The notes below the pieces were generated by a model. The model was not told where the DNA came from. It saw only the letters and a program-made list of their open reading frames with translations, and did no database searches. DNA of 62,047 nucleotides from Syntrophomonas sp. DTU018 (lineage in GTDB: Bacteria > Bacillota > Syntrophomonadia > Syntrophomonadales > Syntrophomonadaceae): assembly GCA_001513155.1 (NCBI GenBank), contig LFSR01000057.1, positions 1-62,047 on the forward strand, read 5' to 3'. Shown piece by piece: positions 2,877 to 22,251 of the stretch. The translations under genes and the position numbers were made by a program. How positions within the stretch are numbered: the first letter of the stretch is position 1; each line of letters begins with the position of its first letter.

Positions 2877-2916
2877 CTGGCCTTCCCCTCCTAAAGCCTT
2901 CCTGCCCGGGAACCGT

Positions 2917-6016: not shown

Positions 6017-7085
6017 CGGCCTTGTTTATGGCCAAATACAAAGCATGATAAATGTCATCGGCTTCCACACCGGGAATCCTGACTTCATTGGCAGCAAAAA
6101 ACTCCCGCACCGTTTTCAGCACATGGCTGGCCTGGCTGGAAGAGTTCTTGAGTACAGCTTCCAGGTCCAGGATACTTCTTTCCGGATAGGCGAAAAAGTC
6201 TCCGGTAATAAAAACGCTTTTGATGATACCACGGGTACGGTCCAGCCGCAGGGAGACTCTTATCAGCCCTCCCGGGGCTTTGTATTCGGCAGTGCTCAAA
6301 TAATTATCCTGAACAGGAGTACGGGTACCGCGAATCCATTCATCGGACTGGAAGCGGGGCAGTTCCCGGGCCAGCATTTGTTCCTCTTCTCGGGTCAGCC
6401 CGCCGGGTTCCAGTTTTACTCCCAGGACTTCCGCAAACCCCTGGGCCATGGCCTGCTTGATAGTTTCTATAGGCGGCAGGTAGCCCAGTACCCCCCGCAG
6501 GCAAGTTACTCTTTCCTTGAAGGACTTCACCTGCTTGTCTTTTAACTTCTCTACCGGAAGCTTCAAGCACTTGACCATGGTATCCACGTCAAAGTCAGTA
6601 AGAAGGCTGCCCTGGTACAGGAAGGCGTTTCCGTACTCGGTGCCGCCGCTGCCGCAAATCTTTCGGCCCGCCACTTCAATGTCGTTAGCGGGACGATAGT
6701 GAGCTTTAACCCCCAGTCGAGCCAGGCCAGCCACTGCACATTCACACATCATGCGGTACAAATCAGGCAACCGGATAGGAATACCCGGCGTATCTTTGCG
6801 GGCATATATCTCCCACCCCAGTTGACTCTCATCCCAGTAAAGATTCCCGCCACCGGTGATACGCCGGTTGATATCGATGCCATGTTGACGACAGTATTCC
6901 TCTTCAACTTCCAGCTCCACCGCCTGGTGGTAACCCACCAGCACACAGTGGGGAGAGAACTGGAGAAAGCGCACGGTATTGGGGACTAAATCCTTACTTC
7001 GGGCAGTGAGTATCACCCTGTCCAGTGCCATGTTGGCCGCAGCCGGCAGATGTCCAGTGTCGAGCAGGCGCCAGGCGTCGCTCAT
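5988..7085 (-). CDS. two-domain lipoate-protein ligase (sLpl(AB)/LplA type)
   Basis: A 365-aa lipoate/octanoate-protein ligase that would activate a free acid with ATP and attach it to a carrier lysine. NRRITGGGNLYWD (about residue 74) is the nucleotide/acyl-binding motif and GRKICGSGG (about 145) carries the expected catalytic lysine. After the catalytic domain a C-terminal LplB-type accessory domain is present (from about residue 255, RVSLRLDRTRGIIKSVFITG), so one chain carries both A and B modules. Its ATG overlaps the stop of the upstream GcvH-like gene (ATGA), which suggests that this H-like protein is its substrate. It matches the sLpl(AB) enzymes that serve LipS1/LipS2 in layout. Confidence 0.82.
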   Translation of the reverse strand: MSDAWRLLDTGHLPAAANMALDRVILTARSKDLVPNTVRFLQFSPHCVLVGYHQAVELEVEEEYCRQHGIDINRRITGGGNLYWDESQLGWEIYARKDTPGIPIRLPDLYRMMCECAVAGLARLGVKAHYRPANDIEVAGRKICGSGGTEYGNAFLYQGSLLTDFDVDTMVKCLKLPVEKLKDKQVKSFKERVTCLRGVLGYLPPIETIKQAMAQGFAEVLGVKLEPGGLTREEEQMLARELPRFQSDEWIRGTRTPVQDNYLSTAEYKAPGGLIRVSLRLDRTRGIIKSVFITGDFFAYPERSILDLEAVLKNSSSQASHVLKTVREFFAANEVRIPGVEADDIYHALYLAINKAGEDNEQVAL

Positions 7086-7513
7086 AATACCACCTCATCT
7101 TCCATTTCACGACGAACCTGCTCTTCCACCCATTGCGCATAAGCTGCTGCATCCATCAAACCATCAGCGTCTTCCGGGCTGTTTAGTCTGACCTTTATCA
7201 TCCATCCCTGGCCGTACGGGTCGCTGTTGACTTTTCGCGGGTCAGTTTCCAGCTCGCTGTTGATTTCCATAACTACTCCGGAGACTGGAGCCACCAGGCT
7301 ACCCACCCATTTCCCAGACTCTACGGAGCCAAAACTACCGCCTTGTTCAAGTTCCGTTCCTGGAGAAACCAATTCCAAATAGAGGACATCTCCGATAGTG
7401 TACTGCCCGTATTCGGTTAAACCGACTAAAGCCTGGTTACCTTCCAGCTTTACCCAGAAATTGTCATGGGTATAGAGCAAGGTTTCAGGAATCTGCCACT
7501 TGCCTGCTTGCAT
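7082..7513 (-). CDS. GcvH-like lipoyl carrier protein 1
   Basis: A 143-aa glycine-cleavage-H-like protein. The hybrid-barrel fold is clear (HDNFWVKLEG, VGLTEYGQYTIGDV, then APVSGVV and NSDPYGQGWM), and the lipoylation site is Lys68 in VESGKWVG, where canonical H proteins have VESVKA. The ATG at 7513 is preferred over an upstream ATG because GGGAGGAAG stands at normal distance. No glycine decarboxylase (P) or aminomethyltransferase (T) gene is in the window, so a role in glycine cleavage is unlikely. Coupled translation with the ligase, and the HdrD-like gene nearby, point to a carrier similar in logic to the LbpA proteins of the sHdr system. Confidence 0.88.
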   Translation of the reverse strand: MQAGKWQIPETLLYTHDNFWVKLEGNQALVGLTEYGQYTIGDVLYLELVSPGTELEQGGSFGSVESGKWVGSLVAPVSGVVMEINSELETDPRKVNSDPYGQGWMIKVRLNSPEDADGLMDAAAYAQWVEEQVRREMEDEVVL

Positions 7514-7592
7514 TTTTCTTCTTCCTCCCTTGGGCGTTATTTGCCTTCGAGGCTGCTGCCCCACAAAAGAATAAACTGCCTGGATATAATTC

Positions 7593-8513
7593 TTATGGGG
7601 TGTTCATCGACCATGCTGGTGCTGTATCGGGACAATCCTCCGTGTTATTTTCCCACAGTACTTCCTCCGCTTTTCCATTCTTTAGCAGTATCGTTACACT
7701 CTGCTGGTCTCCCAGCCTGCGTTCCTCCAGATAAACCCCTTCGGCGATCTTCACTCTCCGCTGGCAGGTTTTTTTGCCCGGCATGTTCAGCCAGTCAGAG
7801 GAAGTCAAGCGCTCCCGGATTTGACCGGCCATCTTTATCAACCCTTCATCCGGCCTCTGGGGAGTGAGATTGCCCAGCAATTCAGCAAAGCCGGCTGCCA
7901 GCGCCTCCGCAAGTTCAGTGTGAGTCACTGAGTTCCCTGGTATCCAATCGGCCAGGGTAGTCATATGATCGCGCATAGTCTTGCGCAGGCACTGGCGAAA
8001 ACCAGGAGAGGGAACGCGCAGAACCCGGCTCATGGTATCAAAGTCAAAATCCAGCAATAGGTTGCCCACATAAGCTGTACACGCGCCTATGTCCCCTGCC
8101 GCATTGCCGGAACACTTTTTCCCTTCAGCTATCAAGTCAGCAGGAGGCCGGAGATAGGCCGGCAACCCGTACGATTGATAAACCTTGATGGCTGGCTGCA
8201 GGAATTTGGGGTAGAAGCGTTCCCGGCGCAGGGGCAACAAAGGGTTATCCCGGCGCAGTACCAGTTGAAAGAACAATTGGCGGCAGTCCAGGTAGACTAC
8301 ACCGCCACCTGTCTCCCGCCGTATAAGAGGTAAGCTCTGGTCCCGGCAATAGTCCACATCGATTTCCTGTTCCAGGTCATCATGCAGACCCAGGCAGATA
8401 TAAGGGGTGGTGGGATAACATATGATTAAGCCTTCCCTGCCCAGCATAGCCAGGGCATGATAAAAGCATTGCGACTCCCACCAGCTCACTGCTCCCAGGT
8501 TGTAGAAGTCCAT
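7593..8513 (-). CDS. LplA-family lipoate/octanoate ligase or transferase (second copy)
   Basis: A 306-aa member of the biotin/lipoate protein ligase fold. RRETGGGVVYLD (about residue 71) and GKKCSGNAA (about 137) are the acyl-binding motif and catalytic lysine. It is related to, but clearly different from, the 365-aa ligase next door, and its C-terminal part is too short for a full LplB domain. It could be a ligase for the second H-like protein or E2, or an amidotransferase (LipL/LipM-like) moving lipoyl groups between carriers. It has its own site (GGGAGGTAAGCT) and follows the DUF6506 gene by about 25 bp. Confidence 0.8.
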   Translation of the reverse strand: MDFYNLGAVSWWESQCFYHALAMLGREGLIICYPTTPYICLGLHDDLEQEIDVDYCRDQSLPLIRRETGGGVVYLDCRQLFFQLVLRRDNPLLPLRRERFYPKFLQPAIKVYQSYGLPAYLRPPADLIAEGKKCSGNAAGDIGACTAYVGNLLLDFDFDTMSRVLRVPSPGFRQCLRKTMRDHMTTLADWIPGNSVTHTELAEALAAGFAELLGNLTPQRPDEGLIKMAGQIRERLTSSDWLNMPGKKTCQRRVKIAEGVYLEERRLGDQQSVTILLKNGKAEEVLWENNTEDCPDTAPAWSMNTP

Positions 8514-8537
8514 AGCTTACCTCCCGGTCTTCTGTAT

Positions 8538-8840
8538 CTAAAACAGTTCATCGCCGCTCTTGAATCCCAGGCCAGGGTGGTTGTCAAAGCGGACTACACC
8601 TACTACAGCTTTGCCATCCACCGCTTTCTTTACTGCAGCAGTTCCTTCAATACCAAAACCACCACATAATTCAATTGCGCCTACACCTTCATTGACCAGT
8701 TCTTTTGCAGCCTCTGTCGCCATCTGGTAGTCCTTTACTCCTACCACGGTCAGTTCCACTTCCGGTGTATTTACCACCGCCCGGTGTTTACGGGCATCTG
8801 CTTCGGGAGCCACAAATATAAACGCCGCCTTCAATGCCAT
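8538..8840 (-). CDS. DUF6506-like small protein
   Basis: A 100-aa soluble protein (starts MALKAAFIFVAPEADARKHR; ends GVVRFDNHPGLGF). It looks like the DUF6506 family by its start (KAAFIFVAPEAD) and the GAIELCGGFG segment; no function is known to me. The ATG at 8840 has AAAGGAGTGA at good distance and is preferred over the one at 8846. It sits between the HdrD-like and LplA-like genes, within the operon, so a link to lipoyl chemistry is possible but not shown. Confidence 0.65.
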   Translation of the reverse strand: MALKAAFIFVAPEADARKHRAVVNTPEVELTVVGVKDYQMATEAAKELVNEGVGAIELCGGFGIEGTAAVKKAVDGKAVVGVVRFDNHPGLGFKSGDELF

Positions 8841-8878
8841 TCCCATTCACTCCTTTATTAATTAAATCCCATTGAGTA

Positions 8879-10045
8879 TCATTCCATAGCTTCCAGAATC
8901 AACTGGCTTATATCCATAACCCGTACTGGCAGACCCGTCTCACGGATGGCTGCACTCAACATCTGTTCACATTGCTGGCAGGAGGAAACCACAATGGTAG
9001 CTCCAGTTTCCTTTATTTCTTCCACTCTGAGCTTGGTTATTTCTTTGGCCAGCTGCGGATCTACGCTCTGCAAATTTCCGCCTCCGCCGCAGCAGAGGGA
9101 ATCCATACCGTGATGGGCCAGTTCTACAAACCTTACTCCCGGAATGCTGTTAATAATTTTACGGGGAGCATCAAAAATCCCGCCGTTGCGCCCCAGGTCA
9201 CAGGGGTCATGGTAGGTTATTACTTCGTCCAGTTCATTCAGTTGGATGCGATTTTCTTCTATAAGCCGGGCCAGGTATTCAGTAGTATGCAGTACTTCCA
9301 GGTCATATCCGGCTAATTGTTCCCGGCTCTCGTATTTCCAGATGTGGTAACAGGATGCACAGCTTGCCACCAGAGTAGAAATACCCATTTCCTTGATTTT
9401 TTCCACATTATGCCTGCGGAACTCCCGGGCATCATCAGGATAGCCGCTGATAATCAGGGGAAAACCGCAGCACCATTCATCCCCGCCCATGGTGGTAAAG
9501 TCCACCCCTGCTGCGCCAAATATTTCTGCATTGGCCAGGGGTATTTGGGCGGCCTGGGGGAAGAATGAGGAAACGCACCCGACAAAGTAGGCTACTTCCG
9601 CTCCGTCTCTCGGTTCCGCCACATCTGGATCATCTAAATCCTGTGCCCACTCCAGACGGTCTTGGTTGTCGAAGGTGGTAATATTCTTGTTGTCCAGTAT
9701 ATTTTTCCGAATATCCTGCAAGCCTTTAGGATTTTTGCCGCCCTCAGCTATACGGCGCCGCAGTTCTATCCATAGTTCTCTTAAATCAATACTGGTTGAA
9801 CAGACAACGTTACAAGCTCCGCATAGAGTACACTGGGTCACCCGCTGGATAAATTCGTCGCTCAGGGCATTTTTATTTCCCTTAACATAAAGATCCTTGG
9901 CCACTGTGATTTTGCCCCGGGGTGAAGCTGACTCCCATCCAATCACCCGGTAGACCGGACAGCAATTCCGGCAATAACCACACCGGGCGCATATCAAAGC
10001 TTCTTGCTCCAACGTAGTGAACTTATTTTCGTGTTGTGTGCTCAT
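8879..10045 (-). CDS. (Fe-S) oxidoreductase with two CCG domains, HdrD/GlcF-like
   Basis: A 388-aa electron-transfer protein. Two ferredoxin motifs bind [4Fe-4S] clusters (C19-x2-C22-x2-C25-x3-C29-P; C72-x2-C75-x2-C78-x3-C82). Two complete CCG motifs follow: C157-x34-CC-x35-C229-x2-C232 and C282-x35-CC-x36-C356-x2-C359, the spacing of the non-cubane-cluster sites in heterodisulfide reductase HdrB/HdrD. The ATG at 10045 overlaps the stop of the GlcD-like gene (ATGA) and has AAGGGGTGG upstream, so the long upstream reading frame is rejected. It should pair with that flavoprotein. Having both CCG sites complete suggests disulfide chemistry rather than simple glycolate oxidation; a lipoyl disulfide is the obvious local partner (inference). 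Confidence 0.9.
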   Translation of the reverse strand: MSTQHENKFTTLEQEALICARCGYCRNCCPVYRVIGWESASPRGKITVAKDLYVKGNKNALSDEFIQRVTQCTLCGACNVVCSTSIDLRELWIELRRRIAEGGKNPKGLQDIRKNILDNKNITTFDNQDRLEWAQDLDDPDVAEPRDGAEVAYFVGCVSSFFPQAAQIPLANAEIFGAAGVDFTTMGGDEWCCGFPLIISGYPDDAREFRRHNVEKIKEMGISTLVASCASCYHIWKYESREQLAGYDLEVLHTTEYLARLIEENRIQLNELDEVITYHDPCDLGRNGGIFDAPRKIINSIPGVRFVELAHHGMDSLCCGGGGNLQSVDPQLAKEITKLRVEEIKETGATIVVSSCQQCEQMLSAAIRETGLPVRVMDISQLILEAME

Positions 10046-11496
10046 CTGCGACCACCCCTTCCTGCTGCCCTTATCAGTCCTGCCATTACATTTGCGCCTA
10101 TACCAAAAGTAAATGGATGGAACAGCAAGGGGTAGCGGTATACTTTGCCGGGATTCAATATGCCCCTGGGATCCAATCGCTTCTTCCGTTCTCTCAGTTC
10201 CGCCAGCTCTTTTCGGGAATAAATACGGGTAATATATGGGCTGTTCCAAAGTCCGATTCCGTATGGATGCCCGCCGTACCGGAAGCCAACATCCTGAATT
10301 TTCTTAGTTAAACCGAGACTGAACATATAATTAATAGTGTTTACTTCATTAGCATAGAACATGGTCATAACGGTAACATATTCTGGTGTAACCACATGCC
10401 CGTAAGACATAAAACGAATACCGTACTTGGAAGACATTGCAGCAATGTCAGCCAGGTAACCTGACACTTCTTTGATGGGAAGCCAAACTTCTCCGCCCAA
10501 TACACTTGGTCCGCCTCGTTTTAACCGCAGGGCTTTGAACCTTTCTTCCCACTCCAGATCCGCCATCTCGCCAGGCATCATTTTCACCTTGGGATGTTGA
10601 TCGACTATTCTGCGGATGATGTCTTCCGCCTGATCCAGTTCCTGCTCGGCTCCTTCATAATCAACCTGTAAAAGACATCCCTCGCCAACCTCATCCGGGA
10701 TCAGTCCCAAGGCGTGCATTCCCTGTACACAGGCTGGATCGGTAAAATGTAAGTTGTAGGGGATGACGGGAGCATCTTTTACTTCCTTTAATACCTGGGC
10801 CATTTCTGGTACGCTGTCCATCTTTAAAAGAAAGTGTTTCATGGGGTTAAGTTTGCGAACTTCCAGCTCTAACCAGGTTACAATACCGAGAGTGCCCTCC
10901 GAACCAGCAAACCAGCTCAAAGGGGGATCTGTATCCGGGGTAACCGCTATCGTGTCGCCGGTGGCCAGAACCACTTGGGCAGACTTAACCTGAGACAGCA
11001 GACTGCCGTATTTCAAACTGCCGATACCATATCCCATCATGCAAAACCACCCGCCGATGGTGGCTACCGGAGCGCTGCTGGGATAAGATTTTTCCGTTAA
11101 GCCCCGGCGTTTTAAATAATCATCAAGTTCGCTCCAAGTGGTGCCAGCCTGCACAGTAACCGTCATCCGCTCTTCATTTAAACCCACCACGCCTCTGAGC
11201 AGGTTAAGGTCCATAACTATGCCGCCCTTGACAGGAATGGAATCAAAATATGTGGTGGAAGCACCTGCTCTCGGGGTTACCGGAATATTTTCTTTCCAGG
11301 CTATCCTCAGTATTTCAGCAACCTCTTCTTCATTGGCGGGACGCACCACCAGGTCCGGCATGGTTTTAAAAAGGGGATCCACCATGAGAGCCGGTACCGG
11401 TGCCAGATCCCGGGTATACAAGTTTCGTTCAAAAGGAGAATCGTTAGCCCGGTCACCGTATTTGTGCTTTATTTCCTCCACTATTTCAGGTTTCAT
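10042..11496 (-). CDS. FAD-binding oxidoreductase, GlcD/lactate-dehydrogenase-like
   Basis: A 484-aa flavoprotein of the PCMH/VAO family: FAD-binding domain in residues about 45-225 (VVRPANEEEVAEILRIA, TPRAGASTTY, MTVTVQAGTTWSEL, GSEGTLGIVT), then the FAD-oxidase C domain ending in the family signature RLDPRGILNPGKVY. Members oxidise 2-hydroxyacids such as lactate or glycolate and pass electrons to an iron-sulfur partner, here the overlapping HdrD/GlcF-like gene. No membrane segment is seen. It lies between a GcvH-like gene and the iron-sulfur gene, so its electron donor or acceptor may be a lipoyl protein. Substrate unknown. Confidence 0.88.
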   Translation of the reverse strand: MKPEIVEEIKHKYGDRANDSPFERNLYTRDLAPVPALMVDPLFKTMPDLVVRPANEEEVAEILRIAWKENIPVTPRAGASTTYFDSIPVKGGIVMDLNLLRGVVGLNEERMTVTVQAGTTWSELDDYLKRRGLTEKSYPSSAPVATIGGWFCMMGYGIGSLKYGSLLSQVKSAQVVLATGDTIAVTPDTDPPLSWFAGSEGTLGIVTWLELEVRKLNPMKHFLLKMDSVPEMAQVLKEVKDAPVIPYNLHFTDPACVQGMHALGLIPDEVGEGCLLQVDYEGAEQELDQAEDIIRRIVDQHPKVKMMPGEMADLEWEERFKALRLKRGGPSVLGGEVWLPIKEVSGYLADIAAMSSKYGIRFMSYGHVVTPEYVTVMTMFYANEVNTINYMFSLGLTKKIQDVGFRYGGHPYGIGLWNSPYITRIYSRKELAELRERKKRLDPRGILNPGKVYRYPLLFHPFTFGIGANVMAGLIRAAGRGGRR

Positions 11497-11523
11497 TTTT
11501 TACCCTCCCTAACCGGACCTTAC

Positions 11524-11949
11524 TTACTGTGCATGCTTGGCTATTTCCTCTTTAACCCACTCCACTGCTTTTTCTCCATAAAGCAGAGCTTTCAATCCAT
11601 TTTCCAGGTCCTCGGGTTCCATTACCGCGATCCACCCTGCACCATATGGATCTTCATTCAATGGACGGGGATTGGACGCCAAATCCTTATTTACTTCTAC
11701 GACTTTGCCCTTCATGGGTACCAAAATCTTTCCTGCCCATTTGCCAGATTGCAGGCTTGCCAGGGTTTTACCGGCTTCCAGCACTTTATCCACCCGGGGA
11801 ATCCGGATGAAGGTAATCTCTCCCGCTAACTGCTGCATGAAGTCAGTTATGCCGATTCTGATTTTGGACCCTTCTACTTTGACCCAGGCATGGTCGGTGG
11901 TATAGTAAAGGTCATCGGGCATTTCATACTTATTTTCAATCGTGGCCAA
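11524..11949 (-). CDS. GcvH-like lipoyl carrier protein 2
   Basis: A 141-aa GcvH-like protein (144 aa if the GTG at 11958 is used). The TTG at 11949 is preferred since AGGAGG lies eight bases upstream, while the GTG overlaps it. Fold motifs are TTDHAWVKVEG, GITDFMQQLAGE, VPMKGKVVEVN and EDPYGAGW. The lipoyl lysine is in LQSGKWAG, sharing the SGKW core with H-like protein 1 and unlike the S-V-K-A core of glycine-cleavage H proteins. It overlaps the lipA end by 14 bp and precedes the GlcD-like gene, which suggests that LipB/LipA lipoylate it and the flavin/iron-sulfur pair uses it. Confidence 0.88.
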   Translation of the reverse strand: MATIENKYEMPDDLYYTTDHAWVKVEGSKIRIGITDFMQQLAGEITFIRIPRVDKVLEAGKTLASLQSGKWAGKILVPMKGKVVEVNKDLASNPRPLNEDPYGAGWIAVMEPEDLENGLKALLYGEKAVEWVKEEIAKHAQ

Positions 11950-12835
11950 CCTCTTCACCTCCTCTTCTCCTGTATATGCTGCGCAACTTATCCATGGTCT
12001 GGCTGGCCATATAAGAGCTTCTTACCAGCGGTCCGGCATGAACTGCGTCAAACCCCATATCATACCCGATTTGCTCCAGTTGCGCGAAAGTGTCGGGAGT
12101 GATATAGTCAACCACCGGAAGATGCTGGGGTGAAGGGCAAAGATACTGTCCCAAAGTCACCACATGGCAGCCGACTTCCCGGAGTTCGGCCATAACCCGG
12201 ATAACTTCCGGGATGGTTTCCCCAAGTCCCAGCATTAATCCTGACTTGGTAAGGATGTTTTCATCTGCGGCATTTACGCGGTGCAAGAGTTCCAGGGATC
12301 TGGAATATACGGCCTGAGGGCGCACAACAGGGTACAGCCGGGGAACGGTTTCTACGTTGTGGTTGATAACATCCGGCCTGGCTTCTATGACCTGGTTTAA
12401 TGCCTCAAAATCTCCCCGGAAATCCGGAATCAGCACCTCCACCGTGGCTTCCGGAACTTCTCGCCGCAGGGCTCTGATGGTAGCGGCAAAATGCCCTGCA
12501 CCTCCGTCGGGCAGGTCATCCCTGGTAACCGAGGTCACCACCACATGCTTTAACCCCAGCTGCCGGGCGGTTAACGCCACCGCCTCTGGTTCATTTTTAT
12601 CCACTGGTGCCGGTCGCCCGGGAGTAACCGCACAAAACCTGCAATTACGGGTACATACATCACCTAAGATCATAAAAGTACAGATTCTGTTGCCGAAACA
12701 CTCTCCTATGTTCGGGCAATCGGCGCTTTCGCATACCGTATGGAGATGACCTGCATCCAGCAGCCGCTTCATCCTCATCAGTTCGTCTTCGTCCGGCGCC
12801 GGCAAAGTAAGCCACTCCGGCCTATCCAGCTTCAT
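11936..12835 (-). CDS. lipA: lipoyl synthase LipA
   Basis: A 299-aa radical SAM enzyme that inserts two sulfurs into protein-bound octanoate. The N-terminal auxiliary cluster motif C35-x4-C40-x5-C46, the radical SAM motif C61-x3-C65-x2-C68 and the C-terminal R-S-S-Y (about residue 276-279) that ligates the auxiliary cluster are all present. Length is normal. It starts inside the end of lipB (14-bp overlap, AAGGAGGATGGCAA upstream), so the two are coupled. It gives the operon a classical route next to the LipS1/LipS2-like pair. Confidence 0.97.
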   Translation of the reverse strand: MKLDRPEWLTLPAPDEDELMRMKRLLDAGHLHTVCESADCPNIGECFGNRICTFMILGDVCTRNCRFCAVTPGRPAPVDKNEPEAVALTARQLGLKHVVVTSVTRDDLPDGGAGHFAATIRALRREVPEATVEVLIPDFRGDFEALNQVIEARPDVINHNVETVPRLYPVVRPQAVYSRSLELLHRVNAADENILTKSGLMLGLGETIPEVIRVMAELREVGCHVVTLGQYLCPSPQHLPVVDYITPDTFAQLEQIGYDMGFDAVHAGPLVRSSYMASQTMDKLRSIYRRRGGEEVGHD

Positions 12836-13514
12836 TTGCCATCCTCCTTAAGTCTTCCGGGTCTACATCCTCCAGCAGGAGATCGAAAACCTCACTGAAC
12901 TGGCGGCGCATCTCCTGGCGTACTGCAGCAATGTCAACCGGGTGGTCTAAGAGCTGTTCCATTGAAGTAACTCCATAATTGGAGATTCCACAGGGAATAA
13001 TAAGGGAAAAATGCTGCATCTTGGGACACACATTCAACGATACCCCGTGCATGGTAACCCAGTTCTGAACTCCGATTCCTTCTTGCGCAATCTTGGCTGA
13101 CCCTACCCAGACGCCAGGATAGCCCGGTTTGCGCCCCGCAGTTATTCCATAATGTTTCAGGGTACGAATAATAACTTCCTCAAGCCGGCGGGCATAGGCA
13201 TGAACGTCACAACCGTAATCGTTCAGGTCGATAATCGGGTAGCATATCAGCTGGCCCGGCCCATGATAGGTGACGTCTCCTCCCCGGTCGGTTTCATATA
13301 CAGCTATACCTTGCTGATTCAGCTGCTCATCATCTGCCAGGATGTGTTCGAAACCGCCTTTGCGGCCCACGGTAAAACAAGGATGGTGTTCAAGAAAAAT
13401 TACCGTGTCCGGGATAATCCCCTGGCGCCGGGCGGCATTGAGGCTGTGCTGGAGCCTCAATGCGGTATCGTATTCTTCTAAACCCAGTTCTAAACAGTAT
13501 CCGTGCCCGCTCAT
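12822..13514 (-). CDS. lipB: octanoyl-ACP:protein octanoyltransferase LipB
   Basis: A 230-aa LipB. It moves octanoate from acyl carrier protein to the target lysine of lipoyl domains. Seen are the RGGDVTYHGPGQLICYPI core (about residue 77), the conserved lysine in GSAKIA (about 139) and the catalytic cysteine in IIPCGI (about 172). It follows the AhpD-like gene and overlaps lipA. The substrate is likely the E2 and/or the second GcvH-like protein of the same operon. Confidence 0.96.
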   Translation of the reverse strand: MSGHGYCLELGLEEYDTALRLQHSLNAARRQGIIPDTVIFLEHHPCFTVGRKGGFEHILADDEQLNQQGIAVYETDRGGDVTYHGPGQLICYPIIDLNDYGCDVHAYARRLEEVIIRTLKHYGITAGRKPGYPGVWVGSAKIAQEGIGVQNWVTMHGVSLNVCPKMQHFSLIIPCGISNYGVTSMEQLLDHPVDIAAVRQEMRRQFSEVFDLLLEDVDPEDLRRMANEAG

Positions 13515-13552: not shown

Positions 13553-13897
13553 TTACTCAAATGCTTCCAGAGCTTTCATGATCGTGGTGGACAGGTAAGC
13601 CATGGACGGCGAACCACCAAAGGCCACTGCCACAGCAGCCGCCTCCAGAATTTCTTCCCGGGTGGCCCCTTCGTTGAGGGCTTGCTTGACATGCAGGTTC
13701 ATGCAGTACTCACACCGGGCATACAGGGCTATAGCTAGTCCAATGAGTTCCTTGTATTTCCTTTCCAGCTCACCTTCCACATAGCAAGCCTGGTCCATCT
13801 GGACAAAAGCTGCGTTAAGTTCAGGCAATTCATCTCCCACCTGAGCCATGCCTTCAAACAGTTCTTCCATCAGTTCGTTAGGATCTTTCGCCATCAT
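13553..13897 (-). CDS. AhpD/carboxymuconolactone-decarboxylase-like protein
   Basis: A 114-aa alpha-helical CMD-family protein with the redox CxxC and histidine of AhpD (RCEYCMNLHVKQAL, about residues 61-74). AhpD of mycobacteria takes electrons from the lipoyl group of E2 and passes them to a peroxidase. The position directly after the E2 gene here makes a thiol exchange with E2 or the H-like proteins likely, but no AhpC or E3 gene is in the window. A role as plain CMD-family protein cannot be excluded. The ATG may be 13897 or 13894. Confidence 0.8.
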   Translation of the reverse strand: MMAKDPNELMEELFEGMAQVGDELPELNAAFVQMDQACYVEGELERKYKELIGLAIALYARCEYCMNLHVKQALNEGATREEILEAAAVAVAFGGSPSMAYLSTTIMKALEAFE

Positions 13898-13919
13898 AAA
13901 ACCCTCCAGTACCGGTTTT

Positions 13920-15089
13920 TTATATGAATATCTTGTAGGGCTGTTCGATCAGCTCCAGAAGTACGGCTAGGAATTCTGCCGCCGGTGCCCCGTCGATAAC
14001 CCGATGGTCAAAGGACAATGAAAGGCCCATCATCGGCCGGATTACAATCTGCCCGTCTACCACTACCGGTCTGTCCACCGTTCGACCTACTCCCAGAATA
14101 GCGGACTCCGGCTGGTTGATGATGGGGGTAAACCAGTCTACTGAACCCCAGGCTCCTACGTTGGTAATGGTAAAGGTTCCGCCCACCATTTCATCGGGAT
14201 CCAGCTTATTTTTCCGGGCCCGTTTGGCCAGATCCTTTACTTCCTTGCTGACCTCAGCCAGGCTTTTCTTGTTGGCGTTTCTTACCACCGGCACAATCAG
14301 CCCGTCATCAAGGGCTACGGCCACACCGATGTTGATATCTTCCAGCACTTTAATTTCGTCGCCGTCCAGGGTGACATTAATGTTAGGTTTAATTTCCAAA
14401 GCCCTGGCTACTGCTTTAACCAGCAAGTCGGTGATGGAGATCTTGTCCTTGTCCTTGAGCCCATTGTTCAGGGTTTTGCGGAGGGCCAACAGGTTGGAAA
14501 TATCCACGCTCACATGGTGGGTAACTTTGGGGGCCACAGACCAGCTGTGAGCCATGTTTTCACCAATCGCTCGTCTCATTCCCTCATAGGGAATAACCTC
14601 CCGGCAAGTGCACACATAACCGGCAGATACGCCCTCCTCGATGGCTTTTTCCACGTCCTCTTTGGTAATGCGGCCTTCTGGTCCGGTTCCCACAATACAT
14701 GTGTAGTCAATACCGTGTTCTTCGGCCAGCTTTTTGGCTGCCGGGGAAATCTTCACCCTCTTTCCGGCTGCTGCCTGGCCTGCCGGAGCTCCGCTTTGGG
14801 CAGCCGCAGCCGGTGCTCCTGCCCCGGCCAGGATGGCAGAAATGTCCTCACCGGCTTCACCAATGACTCCCATCAGTCCGCCCACCGGCAGTTTTGTTCC
14901 CTTGGGAGCAACTATTTTCAATAAAATGCCGTCAGCCGGGGACTCTACCTTGTTGGTGATCTTCTCGGTCATGACCTCGACCACCGGTTCCCCCTTCTTC
15001 ACGGCATCGCCTTCATTTTTCAGCCACTTGCCCACGGTTCCCGTCTTCATGGACAGTCCCATTTTAGGCATGGTAATTGCTGTCGCCAT
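13920..15089 (-). CDS. acoC: 2-oxoacid/acetoin dehydrogenase E2 (acyltransferase)
   Basis: A 389-aa dihydrolipoamide acyltransferase. Order: a single lipoyl domain (residues 1-78, lipoyl lysine in TEKITNKVESPADG), an Ala/Gly-rich linker, a peripheral-subunit-binding domain (about 112-147, ISPAAKKLAEEHG...EGRITKEDV) and the catalytic core ending in the active-site SFDHRVIDGAPAAEF. The PSBD normally anchors E3, but no E3 gene is present. The neighbouring E1alpha, E1beta and AcoX genes favour an acetoin-type complex over pyruvate dehydrogenase; the symbol is by this context. Confidence 0.9.
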   Translation of the reverse strand: MATAITMPKMGLSMKTGTVGKWLKNEGDAVKKGEPVVEVMTEKITNKVESPADGILLKIVAPKGTKLPVGGLMGVIGEAGEDISAILAGAGAPAAAAQSGAPAGQAAAGKRVKISPAAKKLAEEHGIDYTCIVGTGPEGRITKEDVEKAIEEGVSAGYVCTCREVIPYEGMRRAIGENMAHSWSVAPKVTHHVSVDISNLLALRKTLNNGLKDKDKISITDLLVKAVARALEIKPNINVTLDGDEIKVLEDINIGVAVALDDGLIVPVVRNANKKSLAEVSKEVKDLAKRARKNKLDPDEMVGGTFTITNVGAWGSVDWFTPIINQPESAILGVGRTVDRPVVVDGQIVIRPMMGLSLSFDHRVIDGAPAAEFLAVLLELIEQPYKIFI

Positions 15090-16124
15090 CTAAGCTTCCT
15101 CCTTTAGCCTCCGTACAAGTTTGGTGACTGCGTCCCCGCGAAAACAGCCCCGGAGCGCTGCCTGCCGCAGTGCTGCTCTGACGTCTATCACCCTGGGTCC
15201 TTCAAAGGTAAGCTTAATTGTGGCTTCGTCTCCTTCCCTTACCTCCAGTTCCCTCTCGCCGTCCAGAGCTATTAAGCAGGGCACGTCCTTCACCTTGATT
15301 TCTTCATTCAATTCAATGTGCCGGTAGTTCCTGACCCTCAGCGGTTCCACCAATCCGGGGGCAATGGGTGCCAGCAGGTTGGCCTCACCCGGCTCAACTT
15401 CCATGACCAGTCCTCTTTCTTCCATAATCCCCACTGGTTCCAGAACACCGGCAATTGATGAAATTCCTATATTGTGCGCCTCGCCCCGGGTTACCACCAC
15501 CTGCCGGATACGCTCTGCATCCCAGACCGCCCGGGAGCCGATAAAAGTGTCCTTGAGAATTACCGCATCGATAAGAGCTATGTCAGCCGGAGTTCCATTC
15601 AGATAGATGACCAATTTTTTGGTCGGGTGTATGGCCGGGGTGTCACAGACCCAGCCTTGAGCCACTACACCGGCCGCCAAACCGGCGGAAGTTCCTTCTA
15701 TCATCTCAGGAAACACGTTGTTGGTTCCGGTGGAAATAGGGAGGAGAGGAATTTCGCCGCATCCCTTGGCCACCATCCGGTTGGTACCGTCGCCGCCCAG
15801 GGTTATAATGCAGCCAACCCCGGACCGCTGGAGTTCCAAAGCTGCCTGGTATGAATCCTCTTGAGTTCCGGTTAGTTCGATGTCCGCACAAACTATATCC
15901 ATGGGCAGCCGGTGACGACTGCCAATACCATCAGCAGCTTTGGGAACAATTCCATAATAATCGGGCATATAGATTACTTCTTCCACTCCTGTGGCAGCTA
16001 AAGCCAGTAAAACCCTGCGCACAATGCTGACCTTTTCCTGATTGTCAAAGACCGTTCCATAGGCTACAAGCCGGCGAATATCCTTACCAGATGCCGGGTT
16101 GGCTATAATTCCTACCTTGCTCAT
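15090..16124 (-). CDS. acoX: AcoX-like ATP-NAD kinase family protein
   Basis: A 344-aa protein of the ATP-NAD/AcoX kinase fold: IIANPASGKDIRR at the N terminus and the GGDGTNRMVAKG nucleotide motif near residue 116. AcoX genes accompany acetoin dehydrogenase clusters in many bacteria, though their function is still uncertain. It lies between E1beta and E2 in the same operon and directly abuts the E2 gene. This is one of the better reasons to call the complex acetoin-type. Confidence 0.85.
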   Translation of the reverse strand: MSKVGIIANPASGKDIRRLVAYGTVFDNQEKVSIVRRVLLALAATGVEEVIYMPDYYGIVPKAADGIGSRHRLPMDIVCADIELTGTQEDSYQAALELQRSGVGCIITLGGDGTNRMVAKGCGEIPLLPISTGTNNVFPEMIEGTSAGLAAGVVAQGWVCDTPAIHPTKKLVIYLNGTPADIALIDAVILKDTFIGSRAVWDAERIRQVVVTRGEAHNIGISSIAGVLEPVGIMEERGLVMEVEPGEANLLAPIAPGLVEPLRVRNYRHIELNEEIKVKDVPCLIALDGERELEVREGDEATIKLTFEGPRVIDVRAALRQAALRGCFRGDAVTKLVRRLKEEA

Positions 16125-16207
16125 TCCTCGTTCTCCCCTTAATATCAGACTTGGGGTGCCGGCATTCAGGGAGCGCAGCCCGCCCCCTGGATGCCGGCTC
16201 CGGCTGG

Positions 16208-17179
16208 TTAAAACAGGTCGTGAACAGCTTTGATGATTTTCTCTTCACTGGGCAAGTAGGCTTCCTCCAGCACCGGGGAGAAGGGTATTGGGGTATCGGG
16301 AGCGGTTACCCGTTTAATGGGAGCATCCAACAGGTCAAAGCCCTCTTCGCATACCAGGGCAGCTATTTCGGCTCCGTATCCACCGGTCTTGACCGCTTCG
16401 TGCACTATTACCAGCTTGTTGGTCTTGCCCACCGATTTCAGAATGGCTTCTTTATCCAGGGGAACCAGGGTACGGGGATCCAGGACCTCGGCACTGATGC
16501 CTTCCTTAGCCAGGGATTCAGCCGCAGCCAGGGCTTTTTGCACCATCCAGGACCAGGCCACGATGGTAACATCCGAACCTTCCCGTTTCACATCGGCTTT
16601 GCCCAGGGGAACCACATACTCCCCTTCCGGTACGTCGCCGACTAAGGTCAGAAGCTGCTTGTGTTCAATGTAGATTACCGGATTGTCGTCACGGATGGCT
16701 GCTTCTATCAATCCCTTGGCATCGGCGGGAGTAGAAGGCATAACCACTTTCAGACCTGGTATATGGGTAAACCAGGCTTCCAGGGACTGGGAGTGCTGGG
16801 CGGCAGCGGACTGTCCGGCTCCGCAAGGTGTGCGGACTACCATAGGCAGCCGGGCCTTGCCGCCGAACATGTATCTCATCTTGGCAGCCTGGTTAAGGAT
16901 TTCATCCATGCATACGCCCATAAAGTCAACGAACATAATCTCGGCAATGGGCCGCAGACCTACAGCCGCAGCACCAACTGCACTGCCCACAATAGCAGTC
17001 TCACTGATGGGGGTGTCGAAAACCCGCTCGGGGCCAAATTCGTCTAACAGCCCTGCGGTTACACCAAAGCAACCGCCGAACATACCTACATCTTCCCCAT
17101 ACAGTACGACTCTGGGGTCTCTTCTCATTTCCATGCGCATGCCGTCCCGGATAGCCTCGGCATAAGTCATCTGTGTCAT
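16208..17179 (-). CDS. acoB: acetoin/2-oxoacid dehydrogenase E1 beta
   Basis: A 323-aa transketolase-family beta subunit. YGEDVGMFGG (about residue 26), DTPISETAIVG, FVDFMG and RTPCGAG are characteristic of E1beta, followed by the C-terminal transketolase domain. The ATG at 17179 is used as AGGGTGAG lies upstream; longer frames run into the E1alpha gene. With E1alpha it forms the ThDP-dependent decarboxylating or cleaving component that reductively acylates the lipoyl domain of E2. Confidence 0.9.
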   Translation of the reverse strand: MTQMTYAEAIRDGMRMEMRRDPRVVLYGEDVGMFGGCFGVTAGLLDEFGPERVFDTPISETAIVGSAVGAAAVGLRPIAEIMFVDFMGVCMDEILNQAAKMRYMFGGKARLPMVVRTPCGAGQSAAAQHSQSLEAWFTHIPGLKVVMPSTPADAKGLIEAAIRDDNPVIYIEHKQLLTLVGDVPEGEYVVPLGKADVKREGSDVTIVAWSWMVQKALAAAESLAKEGISAEVLDPRTLVPLDKEAILKSVGKTNKLVIVHEAVKTGGYGAEIAALVCEEGFDLLDAPIKRVTAPDTPIPFSPVLEEAYLPSEEKIIKAVHDLF

Positions 17180-17198
17180 ACTTCTCACCCTTTCCGTA

Positions 17199-18161
17199 TT
17201 ATTCTGCATAAACGTCGGTAAAGACGTCCTCAGGGGCTGGCAGCGGACTTGCTTCGGCGAACTTAACAGCGGATTCAATCTCCGCCTGGGCATCCGCTTC
17301 AATCTTGTCTAATTCAGCCCGGGTGGCGTACTTCAGCTCAATGATCTTGTCTGCCAGCCTGGGGATCGGGTCTTTCTTAAGCCATGCTTCCTGTTCCTTC
17401 GGGTCTTTATATATAGCGGGATCACCTTCAAAGTGTCCCCGGTGTCTCCAAGTCTTGCATTCAATCAGGCTAGGCCCGTCACCGCTCCTGGCCCGTTTGA
17501 CAGCCTCGGCAGCCGCTTCATAGACGGCTATTACGTCATTGCCGTCAACAGCCACTCCGGGAATACCGTAAGCAGCAGCGCGGTCAGCGATATCGGCCAC
17601 GTTCATGTGGTTCTTCTGGTAGTTGGAAATACCCCACATATTGTTCTCAGCTACGAAGACCACGGGCAGTTTCCAAATGGAGGCCATGTTGAGGGACTCG
17701 TGGAAAGTACCCCGGTTGGAAGCACCGTCACCGAAGAAGCAGACAACTACGGCACCGTTTTTCAACAGCTTGCAGGCCAAGGCAGCCCCGGTGGCAATAG
17801 GCTGGCCAGCGCCAACGATACCATTGGCTCCCAGGATACCCAGATCTACATCGGCGATATGCATGGAACCGCCCTTCCCTTTGCAGTATCCGGTGGATCT
17901 GCCGAACAGCTCAGCCATCATAAGATCGATTTTGCCGCCTTTGGCAATCAGATGGCCGTGACCCCGGTGGGTACTGGTAATATAGTCCTTCTGCTCCAGG
18001 TTGGCACATACACCGGTAGCTACAGCTTCTTCCCCGGCGTACAGGTGCACAAAGCCCGGGAGTTTGCCGGCAGCAAACAATTCTGCCGCCTTCAGCTCAA
18101 ACGCTCTGATAGTGGTCATGGTCTTGTAAAAACCGAGCAATTGCTCTTTGGAAAGTTTCAT
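17199..18161 (-). CDS. acoA: acetoin/2-oxoacid dehydrogenase E1 alpha
   Basis: A 320-aa ThDP-binding subunit with the thiamine diphosphate motif GDGASNRGTFHESLNMAS to AENN at about residues 144-170, and THRGHGH near residue 64. Size and the K-G-K-G-G-S-M-H segment fit AcoA/PdhA-type E1alpha. It is preceded by AAGGAGGGA and lies 17 bp after the zinc dehydrogenase. Substrate (acetoin versus branched 2-oxoacids or pyruvate) is not readable with certainty; AcoX and the butanediol-dehydrogenase-like neighbour favour acetoin. Confidence 0.9.
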   Translation of the reverse strand: MKLSKEQLLGFYKTMTTIRAFELKAAELFAAGKLPGFVHLYAGEEAVATGVCANLEQKDYITSTHRGHGHLIAKGGKIDLMMAELFGRSTGYCKGKGGSMHIADVDLGILGANGIVGAGQPIATGAALACKLLKNGAVVVCFFGDGASNRGTFHESLNMASIWKLPVVFVAENNMWGISNYQKNHMNVADIADRAAAYGIPGVAVDGNDVIAVYEAAAEAVKRARSGDGPSLIECKTWRHRGHFEGDPAIYKDPKEQEAWLKKDPIPRLADKIIELKYATRAELDKIEADAQAEIESAVKFAEASPLPAPEDVFTDVYAE

Positions 18162-18178
18162 GCTAATTTCCCTCCTTC

Positions 18179-19234
18179 TTATTTCGGAGACACGATAATC
18201 TTGATGTTTTCATCCTTGTTGTTAATCAATTCCTGGAAGCCTTTTTCGATGATATCGTCCAGGCCAATCCTGCCAGTAATCATCATTTCGGCATTCAGCC
18301 TGCCATCGTTCAGCATCCCAATTACCCGGGCAAAATCCCCGTTGTAAGCCAGAGAGCCTTTGATCTCTTTTTCCGGAAAGGTTACGTTGTTGAACTGGAT
18401 CGGAGTGTCGCTCTCGAAAACACCTGCGGTAACCACAATTCCCCGAGGCCGGACGCTTTCCAGAGCTACCGGAACCGTCTTGTTGCTGCCTACGCACTCG
18501 ATGGCAACATCAGCGCCCAGCCCGCCGGTTAGTCTTTTTACTTCCGCAGGTACATCGCACTCGGTGGGATCGAAAACAGCATATGCGCCAAGCTTTTCGG
18601 CGTACTCTTTGCGAGCTCTGGCTAATTCGACCACAATAACCTTGGCAGCACCGGCAGCCATGGTACATGGAAGTGTAGATAGGACGTTGGTGCCAGCTCC
18701 GAAGATTACTACGTTATCACCGGCTGTAACCAGAGCCCGCAGCACAGCGTGCATGCCAACAGCAAGGGGTTCAACCAGGACCGCTTGGTCAAAAGGCAGG
18801 TTGTCCGGGATCTTGCAGAGGGTATAAGCGGGTACATCTACATAACTAGCAAATGCTCCGTCGGTGTGCAGCCCGGTGAAGGCTAGTTTTTCGCAGGCAA
18901 GATAATTGTACCTCTTGCAGGAATAACACTCCCAGCAAACCTGGCAGGCATCAGGGGCAACTCCTTCGGCTATATTCCAACCTTCAACACTTTCGCCGAC
19001 TTCAACTATAGTACCGGAAAACTCATGTCCAAGGATAATAGGAGCAGTTCCGCCCGTTAGGGGGTGAGGTTTGTCTACCGGAATAAGGATGGTGACTACG
19101 TATTCGTGCAGGTCCGATCCGCAGATTCCGCACCTTTCAACTTCAATCTTCACCCAGCCGAGGGGAGGAGAGGGCGGTTCCGGTATGTCCACAACTCTAA
19201 CGTCATTTCTTCCATACCATACTTCTGCTTTCAT
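18179..19234 (-). CDS. zinc alcohol dehydrogenase, 2,3-butanediol-dehydrogenase-like
   Basis: A 351-aa medium-chain dehydrogenase. Catalytic zinc ligands are in ERCGICGSDLHEY and ILGHEFSG; four structural-zinc cysteines follow the pattern C-x2-C-x2-C-x7-C (CWECYSCKRYNYLAC). The HPLTGGTAPIILGHE stretch is typical of (R,R)-butanediol dehydrogenases, which interconvert butanediol and acetoin. The Rossmann motif is odd: GAGTNVLST instead of the usual G-x-G-x-x-G (third glycine is valine). ATG at 19234 with AAGGGGTGA is preferred over an upstream start. It probably feeds acetoin to the E1/E2 complex. Confidence 0.85.
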   Translation of the reverse strand: MKAEVWYGRNDVRVVDIPEPPSPPLGWVKIEVERCGICGSDLHEYVVTILIPVDKPHPLTGGTAPIILGHEFSGTIVEVGESVEGWNIAEGVAPDACQVCWECYSCKRYNYLACEKLAFTGLHTDGAFASYVDVPAYTLCKIPDNLPFDQAVLVEPLAVGMHAVLRALVTAGDNVVIFGAGTNVLSTLPCTMAAGAAKVIVVELARARKEYAEKLGAYAVFDPTECDVPAEVKRLTGGLGADVAIECVGSNKTVPVALESVRPRGIVVTAGVFESDTPIQFNNVTFPEKEIKGSLAYNGDFARVIGMLNDGRLNAEMMITGRIGLDDIIEKGFQELINNKDENIKIIVSPK

Positions 19235-19426
19235 CGAGTCACCCCTTTCCAATTGGAATGTATACAGACTGGACGCCACAGCGGTTGTTAATGGTTATTT
19301 TTCTTGTTTCCCCCCTTCCTTAGAGTATCTCTGCCAGTTCCCATGGAAAGTACTGCTGCTGGGAATGCTGGTAAGTGAAGAGATTCTTGAGATCGGGCAA
19401 ATACAGGCCAGTCCTGTCCTATTGGT

Positions 19427-19789
19427 TCATTCCGGCACGTCCACATAGACGGTCAGCGCAGCCACGGCCACTACGATAGTGTCACCCTCCCCCAGTTCGG
19501 GGACGTGCAGGCCGCGGACAGACAAACCGCCTTCCACTACTTCCAGCTTGGTGGAGCCAAAAGGAACCGCTTTAAGGACCTCCTGATGGTTGAGTCTTTC
19601 CGGGTAAGGACAGGCGATTTTAACTTCAACATGCATCTGGTTGGGATCGGTGAGACCAATGATGTCAAACAAGCCGCACAGGCAGCTGTGAGATACGGCA
19701 TCTTTTATCGCCTTTTGAGCAGCATTGGTCACATCTCCCCCATGCAGATCCATGCCTGTGCCTATTTCAACAATGTAGCGTTTTAACAC
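19427..19789 (-). CDS. Lin0512-family conserved protein
   Basis: A 120-aa protein of the Lin0512 family, recognised by EIGTGMDLHGGDVTNAA, KDAVSHSCLCGL and the repeated KVPFG-like segment VPFGSTKLEVVEGGL. It contains paired cysteines (SCLCG). Function is unknown. GTG start with GGGGGAGCGAG upstream. It is the first gene after the sigma-54 promoter, so it belongs to the lipoyl/acetoin regulon; 192 bp separate it from the dehydrogenase. Confidence 0.82.
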   Translation of the reverse strand: MLKRYIVEIGTGMDLHGGDVTNAAQKAIKDAVSHSCLCGLFDIIGLTDPNQMHVEVKIACPYPERLNHQEVLKAVPFGSTKLEVVEGGLSVRGLHVPELGEGDTIVVAVAALTVYVDVPE

Positions 19790-19861
19790 AACTCGCTCCC
19801 CCTTTTCGCCACTGTCTCAATCTCCTGGTGATACCTGCGGAATCGTTGCATCTTAGTTTTT

Positions 19862-19878
19862 CGCAAGTACCATGCCAA
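19862..19878 (-). promoter_or_regulatory. sigma-54 (RpoN) promoter
   Basis: On the minus strand the sequence reads TTGGCATG-GTAC-TTGCG, against the consensus TTGGCACG-N4-TTGCW. The GG and GC dinucleotides are ten bases apart as required. Transcription should start near 19851, about 60 bp before the Lin0512 gene. The matching activator is encoded just upstream. Confidence 0.85.
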
Positions 19879-19980
19879 CTTAACGAATTCCCCGGAAAAT
19901 TCGTAAAAACCCTTGCACCAGCGCGATTTCCCGCCCTGCTGCCCTTTAGCATATGAAGGGATCATAAATATGTAAAAACG

Positions 19981-19990
19981 GTCACAGTGA
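19981..19990. promoter_or_regulatory. possible activator half-site GTCACAGTGA
   Basis: A short near-palindrome (TCAC-a-GTGA) about 105 bp upstream of the sigma-54 promoter. It resembles the better palindrome at 20061, so both could bind the AcoR-type activator. Confidence 0.35.
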
Positions 19991-20060
19991 TCGGGCTGTA
20001 ATTACCGCTAATACTGGAGAATTGCCCCTTGCGTTCCCCCTGCCGGGTGTAATGCAGTTG

Positions 20061-20074
20061 TCACATTTATGTGA
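20061..20074. promoter_or_regulatory. candidate upstream activator sequence TCACAT-TT-ATGTGA
   Basis: A perfect 6+6 bp inverted repeat with a two-base spacer, about 185 bp upstream of the sigma-54 promoter, at the usual distance for enhancer sites. A related partial site TGTCACAT occurs at 20209. Binding by the neighbouring activator is inference. Confidence 0.5.
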
Positions 20075-20120
20075 ATGGACTGTCATGTTTTCCCTGCTTA
20101 TTGCTGCTGCCCCAAAGCAG

Positions 20121-20163
20121 CAAAAAGCCCGCCGGACCAAATTCATCTCTGGTCGGCGGGCTT
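20121..20163 (-). terminator. terminator of the AcoR-type regulator gene
   Basis: A 14-bp GC-rich stem (GCCCGCCG-ACCA with one bulge against TGGT-CGGCGGGC) is followed by CTTTTTG on the minus strand, about 170 bp after the regulator stop. It separates the regulator transcript from the sigma-54 operon. Confidence 0.75.
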
Positions 20164-20331
20164 CATAAAGTGCCGCTAAAGCAAAACATAAGTTATTGTC
20201 CTAATACTGTCACATAGGTGTCCTCCCTCTGCCCATTCATATAGTATTTATCTCCGCATCCTGTTTCCAGTTCCCTTTCCCAGTCCTCAGTTTCGCCCTA
20301 TAATAAATCTATGATAGTGTTAAGCTGGCTT

Positions 20332-22251
20332 CTAAGAAGTGATATTATACTGTTTCATCTTACGGTACAACGTATTGCGGGAAACTCCCAAATCCCGGGC
20401 CACCCGGCTGACATTGCCGCCGTGTTTTGCCAACAGCGCTATGATTTCCTGGCTTTCTTTTTCCGCCAGCAGTTGTTTTTTGTGCTGCCTCTCCCGGAAA
20501 AGCCTATTTACCCGGGGTAAAGATAATGGGTCCTGATCATCCCCTGAGCCGTTGGTATATATCTCGAGGGGTAACAGATCCAAACCTATAACGGGGCCGT
20601 CAGCCATGCTGATCATTCTTTCCAGCACATTTTGCAGCTCGCGCACATTTCCCGGCCAATTGTATCTTGTGAGGTAAGTCATAACCTCCGGCTCAACCCG
20701 GTCAACCTGCATTCCCCAATCCCGGCTGATCTTTTTGAGAAAGTGCTCCACCAGCAGAGGTATATCCTCCCGGCGTTTGCGCAGCGGAGGCAAATTGATG
20801 GTGATAACATTTATCCGGTAGTAAAGATCCTTCCGGAACCTTCCTTTTTCTACCTCTTGTTTCAAATCCCGGTTGGTAGCACAGATGACCCGAATGTCCA
20901 CAGGAATCATCTTATCACCGCCAATCCGGGTGATTTTCTTTTCCTGCAATACCCGCAGTAGGGCTACCTGTTGTTCCAGGGGCATATCGCCAATTTCGTC
21001 CAGGAATAGAGTTCCCCCTGAAGCCAACTCAAACTTCCCAGGTCTGCCCCCGCGTTTTGCCCCGGTAAAGGCACCTTCCGAATACCCGAATAGTTCACTG
21101 GCGATCAGTTCCCGGGGTATGGCGCCGCAATTAACGGCTACAAAGGGTCCCTTGCGGCGGGCGCTGCGATTATGAATAGCTTGAGCAAAAACCTCCTTGC
21201 CAGTCCCGCTCTCACCCTGCAACAGCACGGTGGACATACTATGAGCAGCCAGGGATGCCATGCGGATTGTCTCCTGCATCGCCGCACTATTACCGATGAT
21301 ATCCCGGAAGTGAAAATTGGCATTGGCACCGCTGAAGCGGTTAACCAGGCTCTGGACCTTATCCATGGGGCGCAGCAGGATGACTCCGCCGCTTAAAGCA
21401 CCCTGGTCATCCATGATAGGTTTCCCTGAGGACACACAATGAATGGAGTCTCCCAGCGCATCCAGGATTAGCTCCACGTCATGGTAGGGTTGTTGCTTGC
21501 CCAGGATCATTTCAATACAATAGGCTTGGCCTCCAAGAAGATCCTTGATAGATTTGCCTGACATCTCTCGGGCAGCTTTGCCCACAATATTTTCTGCTGC
21601 AGGATTTACCTGAGTGATTATGCCTTGACTGTCGACCATTATAACACCGTCAGACATGGACTGAAGGATGTTGTTTAACCGGTTGTTGGTCAAGACCAGC
21701 TTGCGATTGTTTTCTTTTATCTCCAGAGCCCGGTAAGCCATCTCTGAAAAGGTATTGGCTATAGAAAAAAGCACTTTGGCAATTGACCAGACTCCTTCTT
21801 CAGATATCACTGGTATTTTGTTAACCGCAACTATATACTCATCTGGATCTATTCCCAGTTCTTCGGCAATTCGTTGAAATTTAGCTGGATTGGGGGGTTC
21901 AGTCAGAACTTGGCCGCCAAAGATGGCGCCTATATTCCTGCCTTTCAGCATAATGGGTGCGGCAAAATCAATTAAACCGGCGTGACATTCATACACCGCC
22001 GGTTTTCCGGTACTTACCGCTGTTCTTATTCCCTGCAGATCACATGCACGGCAGCGTCTGCTCCCGATTTCTGTGGAACGGATAAGCTTAGAGCAGAATT
22101 CAGAAAAACAACTGGGTCTGGTTACAGGTTCACCATATTCATCTTCAATCACAACTGCTACGCCCGTGCTATAGGCAAAGTTGTCCTGAAATTCTTGGAT
22201 AAAATCGATATCAATAAGGTCTCTTAGTTCAACGGTGTCCGCTATGTTCAT
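20332..22251 (-). CDS. acoR: sigma-54-dependent activator, PocR-PAS-AAA+-Fis (AcoR-type)
   Basis: A 639-aa enhancer-binding protein. N-terminal PocR-type sensor domain (about 10-180, with the Cys-rich GSRRCRACDLQGI and VYECHAGLIDFAAPI), a PAS domain (about 190-300), a sigma-54 AAA+ domain (about 320-555) with Walker A GESGTGKE, the sigma-54 contact loop GAFTGAK and Walker B GGTLFLDE, and a Fis-type helix-turn-helix at the C terminus (VARDLGVSRNTLYRKMKQY). All catalytic parts are intact. It lies upstream of the only good sigma-54 promoter found. The inducer is not known; acetoin or a related diol is likely from the operon content. The symbol is by analogy. Confidence 0.88.
   Translation of the reverse strand: MNIADTVELRDLIDIDFIQEFQDNFAYSTGVAVVIEDEYGEPVTRPSCFSEFCSKLIRSTEIGSRRCRACDLQGIRTAVSTGKPAVYECHAGLIDFAAPIMLKGRNIGAIFGGQVLTEPPNPAKFQRIAEELGIDPDEYIVAVNKIPVISEEGVWSIAKVLFSIANTFSEMAYRALEIKENNRKLVLTNNRLNNILQSMSDGVIMVDSQGIITQVNPAAENIVGKAAREMSGKSIKDLLGGQAYCIEMILGKQQPYHDVELILDALGDSIHCVSSGKPIMDDQGALSGGVILLRPMDKVQSLVNRFSGANANFHFRDIIGNSAAMQETIRMASLAAHSMSTVLLQGESGTGKEVFAQAIHNRSARRKGPFVAVNCGAIPRELIASELFGYSEGAFTGAKRGGRPGKFELASGGTLFLDEIGDMPLEQQVALLRVLQEKKITRIGGDKMIPVDIRVICATNRDLKQEVEKGRFRKDLYYRINVITINLPPLRKRREDIPLLVEHFLKKISRDWGMQVDRVEPEVMTYLTRYNWPGNVRELQNVLERMISMADGPVIGLDLLPLEIYTNGSGDDQDPLSLPRVNRLFRERQHKKQLLAEKESQEIIALLAKHGGNVSRVARDLGVSRNTLYRKMKQYNITS

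Follow-up and report, generated by a model that had tools for sequence, protein, structure and literature searches.

The region between the Lin0512 gene and the regulator gene upstream of it very probably controls an acetoin-dehydrogenase-like (aco) operon through a sigma-54 promoter, TGT-N12-ACA activator sites, and the adjacent activator gene, with likely read-through to the lipoate genes. The region was analyzed within a 62,047-nucleotide stretch of Syntrophomonas sp. DTU018, which we refer to as the window, and its features are collected in Table 1. Sequence comparison gives good support for an on-switch of a well-known type, sigma-54 with a dedicated activator, conserved in sequence and ordinary in kind, placed before a long metabolic operon. 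The comparison set held 31 further loci carrying a Lin0512 gene with E1, AcoX, and E2 neighbours, or 32 including the window, several of which are near-duplicates, including L021/L022 and L083/L084.

Table 1. Features of the operon and its predicted control region, in window coordinates
Feature	Position	Strand	Basis or remarks
First operon gene, Lin0512 family (PF09585)	19427..19789	-	domain match
Zinc alcohol dehydrogenase, E1 alpha, E1 beta, AcoX-like kinase-fold protein, lipoyl E2, CMD/AhpD-like protein	13553..19279	-	
LipB, LipA, GcvH-like, GlcD-like, GlcF-like, DUF6506, LplA-like, second GcvH-like, second LplA-like, FAD oxidoreductase, two radical-SAM proteins, metallo-beta-lactamase-fold protein	2118..13514	-	
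Predicted sigma-54 -24/-12 promoter TTGGCATGGTACTTGCG	19862..19878	-	rank 1 with relatives-only matrix; kept in 25/32 loci
Possible third activator site TGTGACCGTTTTTACA (TGT-N10-ACA)	19971..19986	-	centre ~-127; weak; overlaps earlier-noted GTCACAGTGA
Main predicted activator site TGTGACAACTGCATTACA (TGT-N12-ACA)	20048..20065	-	centre ~-205 from predicted start
Earlier-noted palindrome TCACAT-TT-ATGTGA	20061..20074	.	exact; 0.12 expected with at most 1 mismatch; overlaps main activator site
Stem-loop and T tract	20124..20164	-	z -5.3; partly in terminator-scan output too
Second predicted activator site TGTGACAGTATTAGGACA (TGT-N12-ACA)	20197..20214	-	centre ~-354; genome-wide pattern count; not kept in L019
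Enhancer-binding activator, PocR-PAS-Sigma54_activat (GAFTGA)-AAA lid-HTH_8	20332..22251	-	domain matches, tree

Content and extent of the operon

From Lin0512 down to position 2118, all genes lie on one strand with a largest gap of ~150 bp, and those in the lipoate-assembly part overlap or are spaced by no more than ~40 bp. Given this close spacing, the acetoin-dehydrogenase-like and lipoate-assembly genes likely share a transcript down to ~2118. A terminator scan of the operon from 6500 up returned two weak minus-strand sites, 18424-18438 and 19677-19690, both of them intragenic. The operon holds no E3 gene, and one strong dihydrolipoamide dehydrogenase match was found at C41.

Several aspects of the gene content were recorded as separate observations. 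The minus-strand genes at 2917-7564 (GcvH-like, LplA-like, FAD oxidoreductase, and two adjacent radical-SAM genes) are similar to a LipS1/LipS2/LipT lipoate assembly set; by their context next to LplA- and GcvH-like genes, the radical-SAM pair resembles LipS1/S2 and the FAD oxidoreductase resembles LipT (PMC10332631). LipA and LipB belong to the same gene run, so that one operon would contain two lipoate synthesis routes. At 8879-11496, also on the minus strand, a GlcD-like FAD oxidase and a GlcF-like CCG iron-sulfur protein adjoin a GcvH-like lipoyl protein, an arrangement kept in several relatives. The Lin0512 gene itself is patchy: within the class, 8 of 63 genomes carry it, and the three genomes from the same genus all lack it, a distribution that suggests transfer or repeated loss. 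Among the top-ranked literature matches, there was no mention of Lin0512.

The adjacent activator and its sensor domain

The original prediction placed an activator gene just 5' of the promoter, and one is indeed found there. Its product has the AAA+ domain with GAFTGA loop and the Fis-type HTH of a bacterial enhancer-binding protein (EBP). Calling it AcoR-type holds for the AAA+/HTH part, which is AcoR-like, but not for the sensor, where PocR replaces the GAF domain of the AcoR architecture (GAF-PAS-AAA-HTH_8). Ten relatives were scanned, and GAF-PAS was observed in eight of them (L018, L020, L023, L024, L026, L028, L029, and L081), while the L021 activator also carries PocR and PAS is the only called sensor in L025. 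Since similar activators carry PocR in the window and L021 but GAF in eight relatives, the sensor domain varies. The kind it belongs to, AcoR/sigma-54, is known; what differs is the sensor domain. It is possible, though doubtful, that GAF was swapped for PocR in an ancestral AcoR-type circuit whose promoter, activator sites (UAS), and operon were retained, so that the same lipoate-dependent dehydrogenase operon with its own lipoate machinery would answer a different small alcohol or ketol.

The genome contains one intact rpoN gene (463 aa, ARRRY (RpoN) box present) and 20 strong EBP matches. Exact TTGGCA-N6-TTGC sites number 22 genome-wide, with seven of them within 3 kb of an EBP compared to 1.0 expected. 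With ~20 EBPs available, the sigma-54 promoter could be real but have another of them as its active regulator, for example the paralogue C58:17615, the closest among them in a tree built from the AAA+ and HTH part. In that tree, however, the adjacent activator clusters with the operon-linked activators of other genomes and none of its 19 own paralogues falls inside the group, with moderate node support around the nearest paralogue (0.68-0.87). The pattern TGTGACA-N8-ACA is also exclusive to this operon in the genome, and a search for the same UAS around three paralogous EBP loci found none. We therefore consider regulation by another EBP very unlikely. On this tree, the window activator is orthologous to the operon-linked activators elsewhere.

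The stem-loop downstream of the activator gene is probably the terminator of its transcript. Directly upstream of the gene (22387-26571, minus strand) lies a pair of related acyl-CoA dehydrogenase genes that share 57% identity. The 16-mer TTGCCATAGAGATTGC has many copies over many contigs of genome G000 and is probably a piece of a dispersed repeat.

A conserved predicted sigma-54 promoter before Lin0512

Sigma-54 requires GG and GC ten bases apart. TTGGCATGGTACTTGCG has this GG-N10-GC spacing as well as the TTGGCA...TTGC consensus, and 89 bp separate it from the Lin0512 start at 19789. The near-consensus sigma-54 promoter sequence noted before this gene is present, and counting the C of GC as -12 gives the same predicted start, ~19851, as originally stated. 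When the window was left out of the matrix, TTGGCATGGTACTTGCG still ranked first in the window at 22.7 bits, with the runner-up at 18.7 bits. The exact core TGGCA-N6-TTGC has two copies in the 62 kb; the other (17238-17252, plus strand) lies inside the operon coding region on the opposite strand and scored far lower with the relatives-only matrix. One-mismatch forms of the core were in slight excess, with 31 observed compared to 22 by chance, a rate near enough to chance that the motif by itself is unconvincing.

Across loci, a promoter was called where a site upstream of Lin0512 reached a score of 10 or more out of 13. Such a -24/-12 element was observed in 25 of the 32 loci, mostly between -51 and -133, with a single case at -257. 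The background rate in the same loci, taken over both strands, was ~1 site per 10 kb and strand, which leads to ~1.4 matches expected by chance. Of the seven loci without a promoter call, four (L085, L086, L092, and L094) show no activator gene, the sole EBP of L087 is 6.5 kb downstream, L089 is rearranged, and the upstream sequence of L090 spans just 105 bp. Loci with the promoter tend to have the activator, and loci without the one tend to lack the other (Fisher p 0.026, indicative only, as the loci are related). A point against the proposed control is that in L019, L022, L079, and L080 the promoter is kept and the activator gene is absent from the available stretch. Separately, L021 and L022 carry another sigma-54-type site, TTGGCACTAACCTTGCA, in divergent orientation ~545 bp from Lin0512 on its upstream side, suggesting shared control of a divergent gene.

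Somewhat less probable again than control by another EBP is that a sigma-A promoter drives the operon and the sigma-54-like match is incidental. A sigma-70-like pair, TTGGCA-17-TAAGAT, does overlap the TTGGCATGGTACTTGCG region, and more were found at 19948-19976 and 20185-20213, but such matches occur at the chance rate (17 observed, 15.2 expected). In addition, GG and TTGC are kept in relatives with their spacing exact, and the would-be -10 region is little conserved.

Predicted activator sites at enhancer distance

Two palindromes, TCACAT-TT-ATGTGA and TCACAGTGA, were originally predicted as activator sites. Palindromes are present at enhancer distance, but the conserved element is a TGT-N12-ACA dyad, TGTGACAACTGCATTACA, that overlaps the longer one. 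An unbiased trinucleotide-dyad search over 12 upstream regions yielded TGT-N12-ACA, found in 8 loci compared to 1.1 expected (z 10.2, null maximum 7.6). The related dyads ACA-N4-TGT and ACA-N13-TGT were likewise above the null maximum. In L018, L023, and L026, the dyad is missing or different despite the presence of promoter and activator. A UAS matrix built without the window ranked TGTGACAACTGCATTACA best in the 62 kb. TGTGACA-N8-ACA has two copies in the 2.56-Mb genome, TGTGACAACTGCATTACA and TGTGACAGTATTAGGACA, and the reversed control pattern has four; this pattern was partly picked after viewing the window, so we place more weight on the dyad search and the leave-window-out matrix. Taken together, the comparisons strongly support the predicted sigma-54 promoter, the predicted sites at enhancer distance, and the tie to the neighbouring activator.

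The TGT-N10-12-ACA sites of Clostridiales EBPs lie 100-250 bp upstream (PMC6615313). Measured from the -24 element, sites in the window begin 187 and 108 bp upstream, within this range, while another TGT/ACA site at 336 bp is beyond it. The second predicted site (~-354) sits upstream of the terminator-like hairpin, and in L019 only the TGTGA of the possible third site is kept. A covariation between recognition helix and half site (SRNT with TGTnACA, ARST with TGCnACA) was suggested by L018 but broken by L021, which has ARST with TGTAACA. No Rfam match to a riboswitch was found in the leader.

TCACAGTGA (19982-19990) is short and has a further copy at 26267, with two found compared to 0.53 expected, and so is near chance by itself. 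An alignment to the closest relative, L019, showed AAATGTGACAAC and TACACC kept and the left arms of both palindromes lost, which rules out the palindromes as drawn as conserved units. TGTnACA heptamers repeat at an 11-bp step in several loci, such as L079, which would explain the palindromic look, with TCACA-TAAA-TGTGA as two adjacent units; the outer arm of TCACAT-TT-ATGTGA may be part of such an 11-bp-period tandem array. The CRP consensus is TGTGA-N6-TCACA, and the least probable alternative is that the palindromes are CRP/FNR-type sites: TGTGA and TCACA half sites are found inside them, but in the reverse order, TCACA...TGTGA, and with left arms that L019 does not keep.

Discussion

We propose that RNA polymerase with sigma-54 would sit at TTGGCATGGTACTTGCG as a closed complex. 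The activator from the adjacent gene would bind TGT-N12-ACA ~205 bp, and probably also 354 bp, upstream of the start, loop over, and open the complex with ATP once a small carbon compound sets the PocR/PAS sensor. Opening would turn on the Lin0512-ADH-E1-AcoX-E2 genes, and read-through would turn on the lipoate assembly genes to ~2118. We infer activator binding, looping, and a single long transcript from the arrangement of sites and genes, while the family context suggests that the ligand may be acetoin, 2,3-butanediol, or another small diol or ketol like these. The activator carries two sensor domains, PocR and PAS; that one metabolite would turn on the whole operon, as originally predicted, we also infer.

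The region offers a well-supported regulatory unit, open to testing, for a lipoate-dependent dehydrogenase operon of syntrophic Firmicutes, a group that has been little studied. It also shows a natural sensor difference, PocR or GAF, between activators that otherwise match, and suggests that assembly of the lipoate cofactor is induced along with its client enzyme.

An AcoR-acoABCL regulon is known (PMC6615313), and the AcoR/sigma-54 (SigL) aco operons of Clostridium and Bacillus have the same PAS/AAA+/Fis-type HTH EBP beside an acoAB-type operon (PMC6615313). They share a -24/-12 promoter and an enhancer-distance UAS with the window. The window activator adjoins an acetoin-dehydrogenase-like operon, as AcoR does, and would be a candidate for its control, with acetoin or 2,3-butanediol as a candidate substrate. 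In contrast, AcoR systems have a GAF sensor where the window activator has PocR, and the window operon opens with Lin0512, lacks its own E3, and includes lipoate assembly genes. The window UAS is TGT-N12-ACA, whereas the Clostridium AcoR motif is listed among the distinct ones (PMC6615313). Compared to the Clostridiales EBPs of the TGT-N10-12-ACA class (AdhR, BldR, PrdR, and others; PMC6615313), site architecture and promoter distance are alike and target genes differ; the NCBIfam model closest to the window activator is PrdR, with a match below its cut-off. The acetoin dehydrogenase cluster of Pelobacter carbinolicus (PMC3543383) likewise has acoX, acoA/B/C, lipoate synthesis, and acoR genes in a long co-oriented cluster, but it contains thiamin genes and acoL, where the window has GcvH-like, GlcD/F-like, LplA-like, and LipS1/S2/LipT-like genes.
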